A stretch of DNA of 7,933 nucleotides from a bacterium. GTDB taxonomy: Bacteria; JAJVIF01; JAGGVT01. Position numbers and translations under genes: made by a program. Position 1 is the stretch's first letter, and each line of letters starts with the position of its first letter. The stretch covers positions 1 through 7,933 of the forward strand of contig JAGGVT010000110.1 of assembly GCA_021157815.1 (NCBI GenBank), given 5' to 3'. Positions 1,380 through 7,731 of the stretch are shown one piece after another. The notes beneath the pieces were generated by a model. It saw nothing but the letters and a program-made list of their open reading frames with translations. It did not search any database and had not been told where the DNA came from.

Positions 1380-1405
1380 CAAACTGAAATAATATTCCCT
1401 TTTGT

Positions 1406-1433
1406 GTAACCTTATCCATACCCCAATCGACTA
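1406..1433 (+). promoter_or_regulatory. Candidate ECF-type promoter upstream of the Spy-like gene
   Basis: GTAACC (1406-1411) and CGACTA (1428-1433) are separated by 16 bases. This resembles the AAC-containing -35 and short -10 used by ECF sigma factors. The start would fall near 1440, about 40 bases before the ATG at 1482. It would fit control of the Spy-like gene by the ECF sigma encoded just downstream, but I do not find a convincing second copy before the sigma gene itself, so this is tentative. Confidence 0.22.
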
Positions 1434-1967: not shown

Positions 1968-1989
1968 TGATTTTGGCATCAACCTGAAG

Positions 1990-2040
1990 ACGCCGGCTTG
2001 GTAAAATTTGTAAATATAATAAGCCGGCGTTGTTCTTTTA
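1990..2040 (+). terminator. Intrinsic terminator-like hairpin after the Spy-like gene
   Basis: ACGCCGGCTT (1990-1999) and AAGCCGGCGT (2021-2030) form a perfect 10-bp GC-rich stem with a 21-base AT-rich loop. The T-rich TGTTCTTTTA follows (2031-2040). It starts 22 bases after the Spy-like stop codon. The loop is longer than usual and contains a perfect TATAAT (2015-2020), which is in a position to serve as a -10 for the sigma operon downstream. Confidence 0.65.
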
Positions 2041-2055
2041 TGAAACACGAACTAT

Positions 2056-2643
2056 ATGAGCGACATTCCTGACATAATTGAACTGGTTGATAGAGCAAAA
2101 GCAGGCGACCATCAGGCATTTGGAATAATCGTTGAGAATTACAAAACGATGGTTGCCGCGACGGTTGGACGCTTTGCCCGTAATGAGCACGATAGGGAGG
2201 ACCTCGCTCAGGAGGTTTTCCTGAAAGCTTACCAGTCGATTAAAAAGTTCAGAGGTTTGGGTTCTTTCGAGGGCTGGCTTAGAAAACTAACCGTTCACAC
2301 TTGCCTGGACTTTCTTAGAAAAACAAAACGCCAAAAATCAATCCCGCTCAGTGATCTGGGCAAGGAAAAAAGAAAACAGATTGAAACCAACACGCCTGAC
2401 CCGAGGGGATTTGAAGCTGAGAAGAAACTTGAATCGGAGGATGCCCTTAAAATACTCCAGGACGCTATGGCATCACTCTCGGCGGATGAACATCTCATAA
2501 TCGTTCTCAAGGAACTTGAGGACAGGAGCATAAAGGAAATCAGCGAGATTACAGGATTTACTCAAGGGAATATAAAAGTTAAAGCCCACAGGGCAAGAAA
2601 TAAATTGAAGGAAATCCTTATGAATAAAGGTGATTCAAAATGA
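2056..2643 (+). CDS. ECF-family (RpoE-like) RNA polymerase sigma factor
   Basis: A protein of 195 residues, the usual ECF size. Region sigma2 spans about 15-90. It includes the region 2.2 helix HDREDLAQEVFLKAYQSIKKF (45-65) and the promoter-melting and -10-binding segment GSFEGWLRKLTVHTCLDFLRK (69-89). A charged linker follows (about 90-128, rich in Lys and Glu). Region sigma4 (about 129-187) holds the DNA-binding helix-turn-helix, seen as DRSIKEISEITGFTQGNIKV (156-175) followed by KAHRARNKLKEIL. No sigma3 or extra C-terminal domain is present. The ATG at 2056 has no clear Shine-Dalgarno; no better in-frame start was found. Its stop overlaps the next start (ATGA), which implies translational coupling to the anti-sigma candidate. 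It probably drives the neighbouring envelope-stress genes and its own operon. Confidence 0.95.
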   Translation: MSDIPDIIELVDRAKAGDHQAFGIIVENYKTMVAATVGRFARNEHDREDLAQEVFLKAYQSIKKFRGLGSFEGWLRKLTVHTCLDFLRKTKRQKSIPLSDLGKEKRKQIETNTPDPRGFEAEKKLESEDALKILQDAMASLSADEHLIIVLKELEDRSIKEISEITGFTQGNIKVKAHRARNKLKEILMNKGDSK

Positions 2644-2951
2644 CAGGAGATATTCCAAACAACGATATAAACTCGGATGACAAACTCAATGAACTCTTCA
2701 ATGCCGCAGCGAAAGAGGAATGGCAGCCTTTTAACGGCTTTTCAAATCGTGTACTGGCGCGAATTGAGCATGAGGAAAGCTCAACGGTTCTGATTGACAG
2801 AATCGCCTGGCGGATTCTGCCCTTTACAGCGGCGGCATCGCTTGCTACTGCAGTTGTTGCCGCGATGGGGGATTCCATTCAATCCGTGATTTACTCAACG
2901 ATTTCAGACCCATTTGCCATTGAGCAGATAATCGCGCTGATATCGGGTTAG
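2640..2951 (+). CDS. Probable single-pass membrane anti-sigma factor
   Basis: A protein of 103 residues. The N-terminal cytoplasmic part (about 1-55) is acidic and helical and contains ELFNAAAKEEWQPFNGFSNR with VLARIE following (about 18-43), a pattern I associate with N-terminal sigma-binding helices of small membrane anti-sigma proteins. A single hydrophobic stretch follows at about 58-77 (RILPFTAAASLATAVVAAMG), then a short tail of about 25 residues that would be periplasmic. The zinc-binding HxxxCxxC motif of ZAS anti-sigmas is absent. The start overlaps the sigma stop by four bases, with AAGGTG about eight bases upstream inside the sigma gene. Position and topology, more than sequence identity, support the anti-sigma call; CnrY (about 95 residues, one membrane helix) is the closest known analogue in shape. 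Confidence 0.7.
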   Translation: MTGDIPNNDINSDDKLNELFNAAAKEEWQPFNGFSNRVLARIEHEESSTVLIDRIAWRILPFTAAASLATAVVAAMGDSIQSVIYSTISDPFAIEQIIALISG

Positions 2952-2960
2952 GTGAAAACT

Positions 2961-3425
2961 ATGAATAAAACACTGAAAACGATACTTGTGCTTTTGTTGA
3001 TCTTCATCTGCGGAATAGTAATCGGCGCGGGTGGAACGCTGATTGCAGAAAGGATTCTGATTAAACGTGCCATAGAGAATCCTGGAAAAGTAAGAGCGGT
3101 GCTTGCGCAGCGTATTGCAAGGCAATGCGACCTGACATCGGAACAGAAAGAAACAATAAAAAATATCCTCAATGATCAGGCGCGCGACTTTGCTCAAATT
3201 CGAATGGATGTCGCACCGGATATCGAAAGGGTTCTTCAAAATAGTCACGATAGGATTATGGGCAAACTGGACGAAGCCCAGAAAGTCAAATTCGAAAAGC
3301 ATTACTCAAGGATGATAGAGAAGTTCAGAAAATCCTATTATTCGTATGAACAGGATAGACTGGATGATACAACTGAAGTTGATGCCATCATGGAGAAATC
3401 CGATTCTGTGGAATCACAGGAATAA
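2961..3425 (+). CDS. Membrane-anchored CnrX/Spy-like periplasmic sensor protein
   Basis: A protein of 154 residues. The N-terminus is an uncleaved-looking signal anchor (MNKTLK, then a hydrophobic stretch TILVLLLIFICGIVIGAGG at 7-25). A helical periplasmic domain follows with LTxxQ-type motifs at CDLTSEQKETI (56-66) and KLDEAQKVKF (102-111), placing it in the Spy/CpxP/CnrX fold group. Two HxxxM pairs are visible, H96/M100 just before the second motif and H114/M118 just after it. In CnrX of Cupriavidus the metal-binding H119 and M123 are also an HxxxM pair located before the second helical-hairpin motif. A Shine-Dalgarno (AGGTG) lies six bases before the ATG at 2961. A GTG at 2952 would add three residues but belongs to that ribosome site. 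It lies nine bases after the anti-sigma stop, so it is the third gene of the operon. Confidence 0.82.
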   Translation: MNKTLKTILVLLLIFICGIVIGAGGTLIAERILIKRAIENPGKVRAVLAQRIARQCDLTSEQKETIKNILNDQARDFAQIRMDVAPDIERVLQNSHDRIMGKLDEAQKVKFEKHYSRMIEKFRKSYYSYEQDRLDDTTEVDAIMEKSDSVESQE

Positions 3426-3459: not shown

Positions 3460-3523
3460 TAGCCCGGTTTCTCATTAACCGGGGTAATGCGTGAATATTA
3501 CCCATGTTTTCCCGGTTAATGAG
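3460..3523. repeat. Inverted hairpin repeat, left copies of the intergenic unit
   Basis: CCCGGTT (3463-3469) pairs with AACCGGG (3477-3483) around a seven-base loop. CTCATTAACCGGG (3471-3483) is also exactly inverted by CCCGGTTAATGAG (3511-3523), so two alternative folds exist. GGGTAAT (3482-3488) pairs with ATTACCC (3497-3503). The stretch 3462-3483 is the exact reverse complement of 3781-3802 on the right side of the region. No T-run follows, so a terminator role for the sigma operon is uncertain; an mRNA-stabilising REP-like role would fit its place just after the operon. Confidence 0.75.
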
Positions 3524-3550
3524 GAGTCTGTCTCAGAACCTGGCTTTTTC

Positions 3551-3660
3551 TGTCATCCTGAGCGAAGCGAAGGATCTATTTTAGATAGTGTGGATTAGTT
3601 TCATCAGTTATAATCATCAACACAGTAGCAAATAGATTCTTCGCTGCGCTCAGAATGACA
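3551..3660. mobile_element. MITE/REPIN-like palindromic element without a coding gene
   Basis: A left arm (3551-3581, beginning TGTCATCCTGAGCGAAGCGA) and a right arm (3630-3660, ending GCGCTCAGAATGACA) are inverted copies of 31 bases with three mismatches, around a 48-base AT-rich centre. The TGTCATCCTGAGCG-type sequence is, to my knowledge, a recurrent intergenic palindrome in many environmental bacterial genomes. No open frame or transposase is inside, so if mobile it depends on an enzyme encoded elsewhere. I see no clear target-site duplication at its ends. It sits between the two groups of hairpin repeats. Confidence 0.65.
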
Positions 3661-3698
3661 AACCTTTTTGCTTATAATTGAGTTATGAGACACTTTCA

Positions 3699-3804
3699 TG
3701 AGAAACCGGGTTACGGGACTAATTTACGTAGTGCCCCGGCTAATGAGAAGCCGAGCTACGGGACTAATTCACGTAATGCTCCGGTTAATGAGAAACCGGG
3801 CTGC
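3699..3804 (+). repeat. 45-base tandem repeat, about 2.4 copies
   Basis: Copies begin TGAGAAACCGGG at 3699, TGAGAAGCCGAG at 3744 and TGAGAAACCGGG at 3789, a period of exactly 45 bases; the third copy is truncated at about 3804. The junction between copies forms a hairpin: CCGGTT (3781-3786) with AACCGG (3794-3799), and at the earlier junction CCGGCT with AGCCGA. The T-to-C and A-to-G changes at the second-to-last stem pair compensate each other, which suggests that the stem is maintained. The unit recurs inverted at 3460-3483. It lies 32 bases beyond the stop codon of the GH42-like gene, so it may also affect the 3' end of that transcript. Confidence 0.8.
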
Positions 3805-3835
3805 AATATTAAGAGTCTTTTTCAGAGGCCTTAGC

Positions 3836-6199
3836 TTAATCATCCGGTGTGAAATAGTCCTTAGGTTCGTGCATTGGTAGCGGTAGTGGAGCTCGGCGTC
3901 TTTTGCGGCGTTTCTTCGCGACTGTGGGATGATACAACTGGATAGTGAATAAAACCCCAAGAGTAATTACAATAACAGTCAGAATCAACGCGATTGGCAA
4001 CGATCTTTTCAGCAGTATCAGCCTGTGATATCTGTCTATTTCGAGGCGTTGTGCGATAACCGCTTCCTTGTATTTTTCCATCTTTGGCAGCCAGACAAGC
4101 AAAAAACAATCCTGCCTGTTGCCGGGAATGATGAAATCAAGGTCGCCGGATATTTGATTCAGTTTCAATGAGTTTTTAAAATCCCTGTCATTATAGGCGT
4201 CATAGAAAACCAGTGTATCACTGCCGCTTAACATTCTTCCGGAATCACTGTACTGGTTGAGAAGAATTCTCAAATCCTTCGAATTCTTTTTTGCTATATT
4301 TATAAACACATATGGCCAGTTCACAACGATGTTGCATTTGTTATTGAACAGTCCGTGATGTTTCACGCCACCGGTTGAGAACTTTTCCTGTATTTCCCGT
4401 TGTACTACCTGATCATCAAATTTGTTGCATATGAATGACTCGATAAGCTGCCGTTGAAGGACAAATGGCTCAATACCTGCATCCCTGAGCGCATCGAAAA
4501 ATTGAGAGACTTTTTGGGGCATGTATTCAGACATATTGGGGGCAAGTGGCGCGACATAATGAATGTCGCTAACCCATTCAGGGATTTCAACATCTTCGGT
4601 TTCATCATCTGTTTTGAGAATAGGAATGATTTCATCAGACGCTACCACTGTGAAATGGAATCCGGCATCCTGAAAAGCATCCAAAATCGCCAGCGACCGC
4701 TCCAGCTCTTTATCTTTCTCGGAGTAGAACTTGCTTAATTCAAAAGGATAATCCAAAACAGCGATTTCAGAGCGTTGTCTTTTATCCGGAAGAGGGAGCA
4801 GATTAAGATGAGTTGTTCGTTCGATTGCCGCTTTTTCCGCAAAGCTCCATGCGGGGGAACGTTCACTCATCGAGTTATGGGACCAGATGATATCGACGCC
4901 AAGCGCGACTGCCAAATGCGCGAGTTTATCTATATCTTTCAAACTCGGTGGTTTTCGCCATGATTTTTCAACAATCAATAACGGAACTTTGCCATGGCGT
5001 TGTGCCATCTCGACAGCGGCGCGCAACTGGTGAATGGAATCCATGTCATCAACGCCGGATGGGTAGTCGAATGTTCTTGAACTGAGCATAAACGGAATCA
5101 GGGCGCCATTAACATAGGGTTGCGTAAGCTGATAGTAATAATCATTCCCCCATACCTGTGACCGATATCCGTTGTCTTCCTCATATGCCATCACGCCCCA
5201 GAAGAGAACGAATATTGGATGATTAATATCGATATTGTAAATCTGCATCCCGAATTCATCCACAGTGGCTCGCCGCATATCACGCCTGAATTTGTTCCAT
5301 GCGAGCCATTCGGGGCGCAAATCCGGTGTTCCCTGTGATTCTCTCGCGATAGGTGTGTAGCCCTCTTCAATGCCGTAGTCGTCATAGAATTGAGACCTTG
5401 TATTCATGGAGTAATCAGCGAACCCGCCTACGCCATCCTTGCCGGCTCCCGGATAGTTCAACGGGCTGGATGGTGATGTCAGCGCCCAACCGAAAAGAGC
5501 GGGATGGTTTTTAAAATGATGGACAATATCGTTGATTACTTTCTTCGCGGCTTTCATGTAATCCGGATTATTCATAATCCCATAATCCAGGTCCGTGGAG
5601 TATTCATTTGCATTTTTTACAGCACCCATGGGACCTGATGTTTCCCGGAAAGGATTTATATGGGTCATGACACTGACGGGATTACCTTCCTTGAACCATG
5701 CGGGCGGACGATCCAGCTCAAGCGCGATGATTACCCTGACCTTGTGCCCATTCTCTGATGTCGCGTTGCGATTATCGATCTCATCCAGGAGATTGCCTAT
5801 TATGTTCAAATCACCCTGAACAAGCTGGTTTTCGACAGGTTCAACGGATGACCAGTCAATCCTGAGATAGACTATGTTGAATTTCCCCTTGTATGCCGCG
5901 TCTATTACCTCACGGATTTTCCTCAAGGACGTTTTTGAAAAACACTCCCCGACATCCCAACCGCTTAAATCAAATACCTGGCCCTTGGAACCCGGTTCAG
6001 GATACGATATTTCAAAATGTGGAAACTGCTTATAATCACCAAGGTCAAGGTTTATTGAGTAAGGCTGCTGAATATACTCACTTTGCGCCTCAAGTCGATT
6101 GCCATCAATGGTTGTGAATGCGAATATCAGGATTGCGGATATTAACACACTGAGGAGCCTGAATGGATTTATCTTTATTTTCCGGATTTTCTTTTTCAT
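3836..6199 (-). CDS. Membrane-anchored GH42-like protein lacking the acid/base Glu
   Basis: A protein of 787 residues. The N-terminus (MKKKIRKIKINPFRLLSVLI) begins a signal peptide or anchor, to about residue 40. A TIM-barrel region follows, about 77-465, resembling GH42 beta-galactosidase-type enzymes: DLSGWDVGE (77-85), IVYLRIDWSSVEP (109-121), RPPAWF (164-169), NNPDYMKAA (210-218), then HPALFGWALTSP (232-243), and FYDDYGIEEGY with PEWLAWNKFRRDM (271-308). In active members the HPA...W segment ends in Asn-Glu, the acid/base; here it reads TSP. A possible nucleophile Glu remains at 411 (LLIVEKSW). A second alpha/beta domain (about 477-590) recalls the GH42 trimerisation domain. A C-terminal membrane helix (about 732-755) and a basic tail with KKRRKRRR (762-769) end it. 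An upstream ATG at 6280 would add 27 hydrophilic residues before the signal; 6199 is preferred. Divergent from the EIIC-like gene. Confidence 0.88.
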   Translation of the reverse strand: MKKKIRKIKINPFRLLSVLISAILIFAFTTIDGNRLEAQSEYIQQPYSINLDLGDYKQFPHFEISYPEPGSKGQVFDLSGWDVGECFSKTSLRKIREVIDAAYKGKFNIVYLRIDWSSVEPVENQLVQGDLNIIGNLLDEIDNRNATSENGHKVRVIIALELDRPPAWFKEGNPVSVMTHINPFRETSGPMGAVKNANEYSTDLDYGIMNNPDYMKAAKKVINDIVHHFKNHPALFGWALTSPSSPLNYPGAGKDGVGGFADYSMNTRSQFYDDYGIEEGYTPIARESQGTPDLRPEWLAWNKFRRDMRRATVDEFGMQIYNIDINHPIFVLFWGVMAYEEDNGYRSQVWGNDYYYQLTQPYVNGALIPFMLSSRTFDYPSGVDDMDSIHQLRAAVEMAQRHGKVPLLIVEKSWRKPPSLKDIDKLAHLAVALGVDIIWSHNSMSERSPAWSFAEKAAIERTTHLNLLPLPDKRQRSEIAVLDYPFELSKFYSEKDKELERSLAILDAFQDAGFHFTVVASDEIIPILKTDDETEDVEIPEWVSDIHYVAPLAPNMSEYMPQKVSQFFDALRDAGIEPFVLQRQLIESFICNKFDDQVVQREIQEKFSTGGVKHHGLFNNKCNIVVNWPYVFINIAKKNSKDLRILLNQYSDSGRMLSGSDTLVFYDAYNDRDFKNSLKLNQISGDLDFIIPGNRQDCFLLVWLPKMEKYKEAVIAQRLEIDRYHRLILLKRSLPIALILTVIVITLGVLFTIQLYHPTVAKKRRKRRRAPLPLPMHEPKDYFTPDD

Positions 6200-6287
6200 A
6201 TATTTGCTACTCAATAGATTATAACGAGTCTTTAACCGTTTGTCATGATGCCTGCTCACATTAATTATATCAACCCGCATGCTGTCT

Positions 6288-6324: not shown

Positions 6325-7731
6325 ATGCCTGATGATTTCATAAGAGATTCAGATTTCAATCCTGATCGTATCGATGTGGAAAGAAAACACCGTGCGCTTT
6401 TCCGAATGAGCGATTTCGCCCAGCGTCGCGGACTTAAAGCGCTTTCCGATTCCCTGTTGGCAGTGCTTCCACTCGCGGTTATTTCAACGATTCTATATAT
6501 CGCAATCGCAATCGCGGATTTAGCCGCAAAACCCGAACTGATAAATGCAATCACTTCCCTGTCAGGTTCTTCGGATAATTTATCAACTGACCCATCCCTG
6601 TTTCTCTCATTTCAATACATTTCACCGTACTTGATTTTTTGCGCGCTGATTCCGGTTTTCTTTGCGGTCGCTTTTACTTTCGAATTGAGCAGAAAATTCC
6701 GTTCTCAGGATGCTCTTCCCATCAGCCTTATCAGCGGACTTATCACTTTCATCGCGCTATACTCACCTATGTTTCTGATAAGCGGGGAAAAGATCTCCAT
6801 CATGGAATTTCCATTTAAAATGATGGATGGAAATCCTGAATTTTTAAGCGGTGGAGTGTTTATCGCTGTTTTGGTTTCACTTTTAAACTACTGGATCTAC
6901 CGCCTGTTTGTCCGTAAAGGGGTGGTTACAGCTCTTCCGATAAATGTAAGCGATGCCATCCAGGGCGGATTTCGAACAGTCCTGCCCGGTACTGTATCAG
7001 CGTTAATCGTAATTGCGCTGGTTATTTTTGTTCACGAACCGTTTGGACAGATTATTTATCAATCCTCAGTTTGGATGACAAACGGCCTTTCAAGCATCTA
7101 TTCACTTGTAATAATTGTCATTCTCGTACAATTGTTCGCTTTTTTCGGAATACAGGGAGCATCATCGGTCTATTCGATTTTCTGGGTGCTTCTTCTGTCA
7201 GGCTCAATTGACCCGCCGCTGTGGGGTACTGAAACAACGGACACCGGATTCGCTACTCTATCCACAGTTTTCTTCTTCGTGATGATAGGCGGAACAGGCG
7301 CGACTCTCAGTTTGAATCTTGCTATGATGATGGCAAAGTCTGAGCAAATACGAAAACTCGGCAACATGACTCTGATTCCCAGCCTGATGAACGCGAACGA
7401 CCTGATTATATTCGGGCTGCCTTTGGCGTTTAATCGCCATTTCATTGTCCCATTTTTCACTGTCCCTTTGTTGAATCTTGGGATTACATACGCCGTGTTT
7501 ACATCCGGATTAATCACCGCGCCAGCGCTTTTCGTGCCGCCATACATTCCCGGTCCTCTCGGAGCGTTTCTCGCTTGTGGGGGAAACTGGACAGCGGCGT
7601 TTGTCAGCATCGTGAATATTCTGATAGGCACTGCAATCTATTCTTATTTCCTTATTCCTTACGACATGAAAATGCGTGAGTTTGAGGACATTCCTGAGAA
7701 AGATTCCTATCCAAGACGATTTGCGCAGTGA
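6325..7731 (+). CDS. PTS EIIC-like sugar permease with altered signature residues
   Basis: A protein of 468 residues with about ten hydrophobic segments, matching the length and order of the cellobiose/lactose-type EIIC family (ChbC/CelB). Recognisable blocks are LKALSDSLLAVLPLAVIST near 37-55, FAFFGIQG (271-278), GGTGATLSLNLAMMMAKSEQ (322-341), NANDLIIFGLP (356-366) and the C-terminal VPPYIPGPLGAFLACGGNW (404-422). In known EIICs the second block reads GIHG and the fourth NxNEPxxFG. Here the His is Gln (277), the Glu is Asp (359) and the Pro is Leu (360). These residues bind sugar near the phosphotransfer site, so the protein may transport or sense sugars without PTS phosphorylation. The N-terminus has an extra charged segment of about 25 residues before the usual family start. 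No EIIA, EIIB, EI or HPr is in the window. An ATG at 6406 is an alternative start. Confidence 0.9.
   Translation: MPDDFIRDSDFNPDRIDVERKHRALFRMSDFAQRRGLKALSDSLLAVLPLAVISTILYIAIAIADLAAKPELINAITSLSGSSDNLSTDPSLFLSFQYISPYLIFCALIPVFFAVAFTFELSRKFRSQDALPISLISGLITFIALYSPMFLISGEKISIMEFPFKMMDGNPEFLSGGVFIAVLVSLLNYWIYRLFVRKGVVTALPINVSDAIQGGFRTVLPGTVSALIVIALVIFVHEPFGQIIYQSSVWMTNGLSSIYSLVIIVILVQLFAFFGIQGASSVYSIFWVLLLSGSIDPPLWGTETTDTGFATLSTVFFFVMIGGTGATLSLNLAMMMAKSEQIRKLGNMTLIPSLMNANDLIIFGLPLAFNRHFIVPFFTVPLLNLGITYAVFTSGLITAPALFVPPYIPGPLGAFLACGGNWTAAFVSIVNILIGTAIYSYFLIPYDMKMREFEDIPEKDSYPRRFAQ

Follow-up and report, generated by a model that had tools for sequence, protein, structure and literature searches.

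What does an operon detect that joins an ECF sigma factor to a small single-pass membrane protein and a membrane-anchored LTxxQ protein? The question was raised by a 7,933-nucleotide stretch of DNA (hereafter the window) from a 3.2-Mb genome in 221 contigs, in which a preliminary description had seen an analogue of the metal-sensing CnrYXH system with a new gene order. We examined the genes of the window, their relatives in other genomes and the sequences upstream of them.

The trio in the window and in other genomes

The ECF sigma factor, the 103-aa single-pass protein and the anchored LTxxQ protein were found on the plus strand exactly where the preliminary description had placed them. Absent from that description were a gene for a soluble Spy-like protein just upstream of the sigma gene and a promoter-like motif (Table 1).

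Table 1. Features of the operon region, with positions in the window
Feature	Position	Strand	Evidence or remark
Putative ECF-type promoter TGTAAC-N17-CGACTA	1405-1433	+	49 bp before Spy-like start codon
Soluble Spy/CpxP-like LTxxQ protein, 161 aa	1482-1967	+	PF13801 8e-11, PF07813 4e-8
Strong hairpin with T-rich tail	1986-2035	+	Separates Spy-like gene from sigma gene
ECF sigma factor, 195 aa	2056-2643	+	Sigma70_r2, Sigma70_r4_2 and TIGR02937 matches
Putative class-II-like single-pass anti-sigma, 103 aa	2640-2951	+	AlphaFold2, family alignment
Periplasmic tail of putative anti-sigma, conserved DP motif	2871-2948	+	D90-P91 at 2907-2912
Membrane-anchored LTxxQ sensor	2961-3425	+	154 aa from ATG 2961; 157 aa from GTG 2952

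The sigma factor was well matched by Sigma70_r2 (E = 1e-17), Sigma70_r4_2 (2e-12) and TIGR02937 (2e-30). Its stop codon and the start of the 103-aa ORF (2640) share an ATGA overlap, and the stop of that ORF (TAG, 2949-2951) is followed nine bases on by the ATG of the sensor at 2961. This ATG, preceded by a Shine-Dalgarno-like taggtg, is the best start, and the GTG at 2952 is an alternative. Downstream of the operon, repeated sequences of the type 'aaccgggct... / cccggttaatgag' were noticed by eye at 3460-3810. The rest of the window encodes an 814-aa protein of no clear family, with two predicted TM segments and weak glycoside-hydrolase-like matches only (3836-6280, minus strand), and a PTS EIIC-like membrane protein of the lactose/cellobiose family (6325-7731, plus strand), the window holding no other PTS gene.

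This set of three genes, identically ordered, recurred in genomes of many other families, which argues that the grouping is not due to chance. A search of 59 genomes with the sensor gave one distant match, and the genome concerned has a sigma, a 103-aa single-pass protein and a sensor in this order; a profile search gave matches in 38 of 289 genomes. Among 30 loci fetched in the first pass, the window included, 25 had an ECF sigma gene upstream of the sensor gene in the same orientation, and a single gene separated the two. Its product was a zinc anti-sigma at 11 loci; at the other 14 it lacked the zinc motif and was usually short. A sigma gene followed by the small protein and the sensor is therefore not a new order, being that of these relatives and also of the Azospirillum RpoE8 operon (PMC12826043) and the Acinetobacter SigAb-AabA-AabB operon (PMC12153292). 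Among the loci examined, it is the gene order of CnrYXH that is the exception.

Co-inheritance was also followed from the side of the sigma factor. In one other phylum, where 25 of 68 genomes had a sensor match, a search of the same genomes for the sigma clade yielded 37 matches whose scores were clearly separated from those of other ECFs. Thirty-four of these sigma genes were directly followed by a sensor gene, two lay at contig ends and one, a distant outlier, had no sensor, so that the sensor follows in 34 of 35 testable cases. Relatives keeping the sigma gene alone, which would have refuted the preliminary description, were thus not the rule in this phylum. No sensor was found in the other three genomes of the window's own class; ECFs from this class matched other paralogs of their own better, with one weak exception, and lie mostly beside zinc anti-sigmas. 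In the sigma tree, the window sigma grouped with the sigmas of short-anti-sigma trios (support 95/79; 98/95 including one ZAS row). CnrH, which has 24% identity to the window sigma, was placed in another part of this tree, although its branch is long. We conclude that the trio represents a branch of ECF signalling that is widespread and combines a sigma, a short anti-sigma and a tethered LTxxQ protein. A name for it was not found in the open-licence papers searched, and an existing ECF group name may apply.

The small protein and the tethered sensor

The 103-aa protein has one predicted TM segment and lacks the zinc motif HxxxCxxC (ZAS, class I), as had been described; the motif is absent from its short relatives as well. 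An AlphaFold2 model based on 28 relatives (pLDDT 83.9) predicted helices at residues 12-26 and 32-46 on the cytoplasmic side, followed by a long TM helix and a last helix at the end. The 28-member alignment gave a matching family layout, with two helical segments at the N-terminus, a single TM helix and a short tail. Class II (CnrY-type) ECF anti-sigmas are defined by a pair of cytoplasmic helices ahead of a single TM helix (PMC4598750), a layout that the modelled protein appears to share. The middle gene is alike throughout the loci of the clade (83-103 aa, one TM, no zinc motif), and its product shows the conserved pattern L..L..AR.E..P..DV...VL..IR followed by the DP motif. Sequence similarity of this family to CnrY was not detectable, Pfam has no family for the protein, and a structure search with the model (Foldseek/VIA-align) found nothing. 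NCBIfam gave a weak anti-sigma match for four family members, the window protein not among them. A match of the 103-aa protein to DUF5056 (0.019) was below the cut-off and was discarded. The small protein probably holds back the sigma.

The periplasmic tail is only ~15-25 residues long. A DP(L/M)xxLF-like motif, or a close variant with a hydrophobic stretch, was present in most of the 24 members outside a Desulfovibrio-like group. Such a conserved short C-terminal motif could be a docking signal for the sensor or for a protease. The latter would fit an alternative for the same module, in which an RseB-like sensor shields the anti-sigma from proteolysis and regulated intramembrane proteolysis, instead of an allosteric switch, sets the sigma free. 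The periplasmic part of RseA is much longer than this tail, whose shortness argues against the proteolytic route. A parallel to RseA/RseB has been drawn by the authors of the SigAb work (PMC12153292). We regard this route as possible but rather doubtful, and prefer release through an altered contact between sensor and anti-sigma.

The window sensor alone had no Pfam match, whereas 15 of 25 relatives matched PF07813 (LTXXQ) and 8 matched PF13801. A six-member sensor profile brought neither CnrX nor Spy above noise in the PDB; with all 25 members, E. coli Spy was reached at 1.7e-6. The family-profile match and two LTxxQ-type motifs place the third protein in the LTXXQ/Spy-CpxP family. In profile comparisons, the match was clear to Spy and weak to CnrX (prob 38). 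The AlphaFold2 model of the sensor consists of four helices (pLDDT 87.6). Foldseek gave no match to the PDB at E <= 0.001, and Foldseek with VIA-align gave generic helical matches only, in which CnrX, ZraP, Spy and CpxP were unlisted, a result that does not exclude them. In 46 aligned sensors, the GxxxG of the TM helix (G21, G25) and Q110 were invariant and Q65 was conserved in 44. Many sensors (L031, L029, L030, L011 and others) carry a proline-rich C-terminal tail with GPPPGPPP repeats, which the window sensor does not have.

The Spy-like protein encoded upstream begins with a hydrophobic, signal-peptide-like segment. Its matches exceed the curated cut-offs of both PF13801 (42.6 vs 29.2 bits) and PF07813 (34.3 vs 24.3 bits), and in the PDB it matched CpxP (3e-5) and Spy (3e-4). 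It and the sensor family matched each other (hhalign 94%), and it is the sole PF13801 (Metal_resist) match in the whole genome, adjoining the operon.

The family name 'Heavy-metal resistance' of PF13801 might be taken to favour a true metal-responsive analogue of CnrYXH, in which the sensor binds a periplasmic transition metal and frees the sigma for metal-defence genes. The GxxxG in the TM helix is common to CnrX and the window sensor, the Acinetobacter operon, which has a similar order, is responsive to copper (PMC12153292), and the related locus L105 has HlyD/CusB-like and MacB-like efflux genes downstream. The names of PF13801 and PF07813 are no proof of metal binding, because Spy and CpxP match the same protein. 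Moreover, no His, Cys or Met column was conserved among the 46 sensors (at best M121 in 16 and H76 in 14), which speaks against metal binding of the CnrX type. Signalling by CnrX depends on Met123 (PMC7689651), and the CnrX metal ligands (Met123 and others) had no conserved counterpart in the 46 sensors, the alignment to CnrX itself being weak. The window contains no metal-efflux gene, the genes examined for such a link being those of local neighbourhoods and of the two exact motif sites; the sigma did not group closely with CnrH, itself on a long branch; and the sensor family resembles Spy clearly and CnrX weakly. These results do not bear out the metal sensing proposed in the preliminary description, and we consider a metal-responsive system improbable. 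It is more likely that the module watches the cell envelope rather than metals.

Upstream sequences

The extended form of the promoter-like motif, TGTAACCTT-N14-CGACTA, occurs at exactly two sites in the genome, compared with none for a reversed control; the second site lies 40 bp before a secreted esterase-like gene. Of 26 related operons, 15 had the pattern GTAAC-N17-N[CG]AC[TC] upstream, where the expectation was 0.22; as these same loci had served to shape the pattern, the count is not free of bias. Spacers of 15, 16, 18 and 19 gave no motif among the 26 operons, so that only a spacer of 17 was seen. Among held-out loci of the clade, the strict motif was present in only one of seven, and TGTAAC with close variants in several more. 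It was absent from 45 other ECF loci (27 ordinary ECF loci and 18 sensor-linked ones, mostly of other branches). With relaxed promoter patterns, a regulon search of the window's own genome showed no excess over the control, and one relaxed site fell within a coding gene. Motif sites elsewhere precede genes whose products are secreted, among them esterases and a papain-like protease. At L121:1732-5980, the motif stands before four genes around the trio; three of these encode secreted proteins, one being a papain-like protease, and the four may form a local regulon.

In the window and at loci L100, L103 and L106, the motif precedes the upstream LTxxQ gene and not the sigma gene; directly before the window sigma gene it was searched for and not found. 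Between these two genes in the window lies the hairpin (-20.8 kcal/mol, z -4.0, 0 of 200 shuffles), a putative terminator or attenuator by its sequence. It was not among the hits of a simple terminator scan, which allows only shorter loops. Pseudopilin-like proteins with the start GFTLIELLVV are encoded beside LTxxQ genes of sigma operons at L100:2392-3336, L103:2847-3803, L106:5101-6057 and L107:5375-6331.

That the Spy-like gene is a chance neighbour of the trio with its own promoter and terminator seems unlikely: the strong hairpin would fit such a gene, and at most related loci the trio has no soluble LTxxQ gene beside it (only about a quarter have an extra LTxxQ neighbour), but the genome encodes no PF13801 protein other than its product, a homolog occupies the same position upstream of the sigma at locus L120 (phmmer 8e-10), and the motif common to trio operons stands before it and not before the sigma gene, as is also the case for the upstream LTxxQ gene at L100, L103 and L106.

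Proposed mechanism and comparison with known systems

We consider it reasonably probable that the whole is an autoregulated envelope-stress module made up of a sigma factor, a small membrane protein and a tethered sensor, with a soluble chaperone-like partner. From the computed gene content, gene order, co-inheritance, shared sequence family, promoter-like motif and TM topology, we infer the protein contacts, signal, release mechanism, read-through, feedback and the sigma that uses the motif as follows. At rest, the ECF sigma would be held at the inner membrane by the two-helix N-terminal part of the small protein, which the LTxxQ sensor may contact via its GxxxG membrane helix, the DP-motif tail or both. 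An envelope stress signal, most likely an envelope protein that is unfolded or damaged, or else a related hydrophobic ligand, and less likely a metal ion, would bind the sensor and alter its contact with the anti-sigma, leading to release of the sigma. The free sigma would then transcribe from TGTAAC-N17-CGACTA, so that the soluble Spy-like protein is made first and in large amounts and, where transcription reads through the hairpin, the sigma, anti-sigma and sensor genes are expressed as well. The soluble protein, being of the sensor's fold family, may compete for the same ligand and thereby close a negative feedback loop.

A more specific proposal, which we put forward only tentatively and hold to be on the doubtful side, is that this is an unnamed ECF branch in which one autoregulated operon provides two forms of one chaperone-like family, tethered and free, the free one titrating the ligand off the tethered one in the manner of a thermostat, and in which the DP tail docks the sensor. 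The soluble LTxxQ partner, the conserved DP tail of the small protein and the promoter motif have apparently not been described so far. Sensors of this kind tend to be annotated as heavy-metal sensors; here the metal ligands are not conserved, and chaperone-like or secreted proteins are found among the neighbours and as motif targets. Together with the conserved short tail and the candidate promoter, this opens the signal, docking site and regulon to direct tests.

The resemblance to CnrYXH of Cupriavidus metallidurans, on which the preliminary description was built, serves as a working analogy: both consist of an ECF sigma, a short non-zinc single-pass (putative) anti-sigma and an anchored periplasmic helical sensor. 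The analogy does not extend to a new gene order or to metal sensing. The order is Y-X-H on pMOL28, whereas it is sigma, anti-sigma, sensor in the window, and CnrX has metal ligands and efflux genes lie downstream on pMOL28. Spy and CpxP share the two LTxxQ-type motifs and match the sensor family as well as the soluble protein encoded upstream, but they are soluble proteins that act in two-component circuits (Bae and Cpx) and not with an ECF sigma. In Azospirillum brasilense, an upregulated operon encodes RpoE8, a hypothetical protein and a 'periplasmic heavy metal sensor' (PMC12826043); it has the same order and, by its annotation, a sensor that is probably of the same broad family, and was left uncharacterised in that paper. 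The SigAb-AabA-AabB operon of Acinetobacter consists of a sigma, a ~100-aa single-TM protein and a periplasmic third protein in an order tested experimentally; it is autoregulated, the anti-sigma activity was tested, and AabA is predicted to bind in a CnrY-like manner (PMC12153292). Compared by description, AabB is a periplasmic protein with a signal peptide, whereas the window sensor is a membrane-anchored LTxxQ protein; the two operons are alike in their order and in their overlapping genes.
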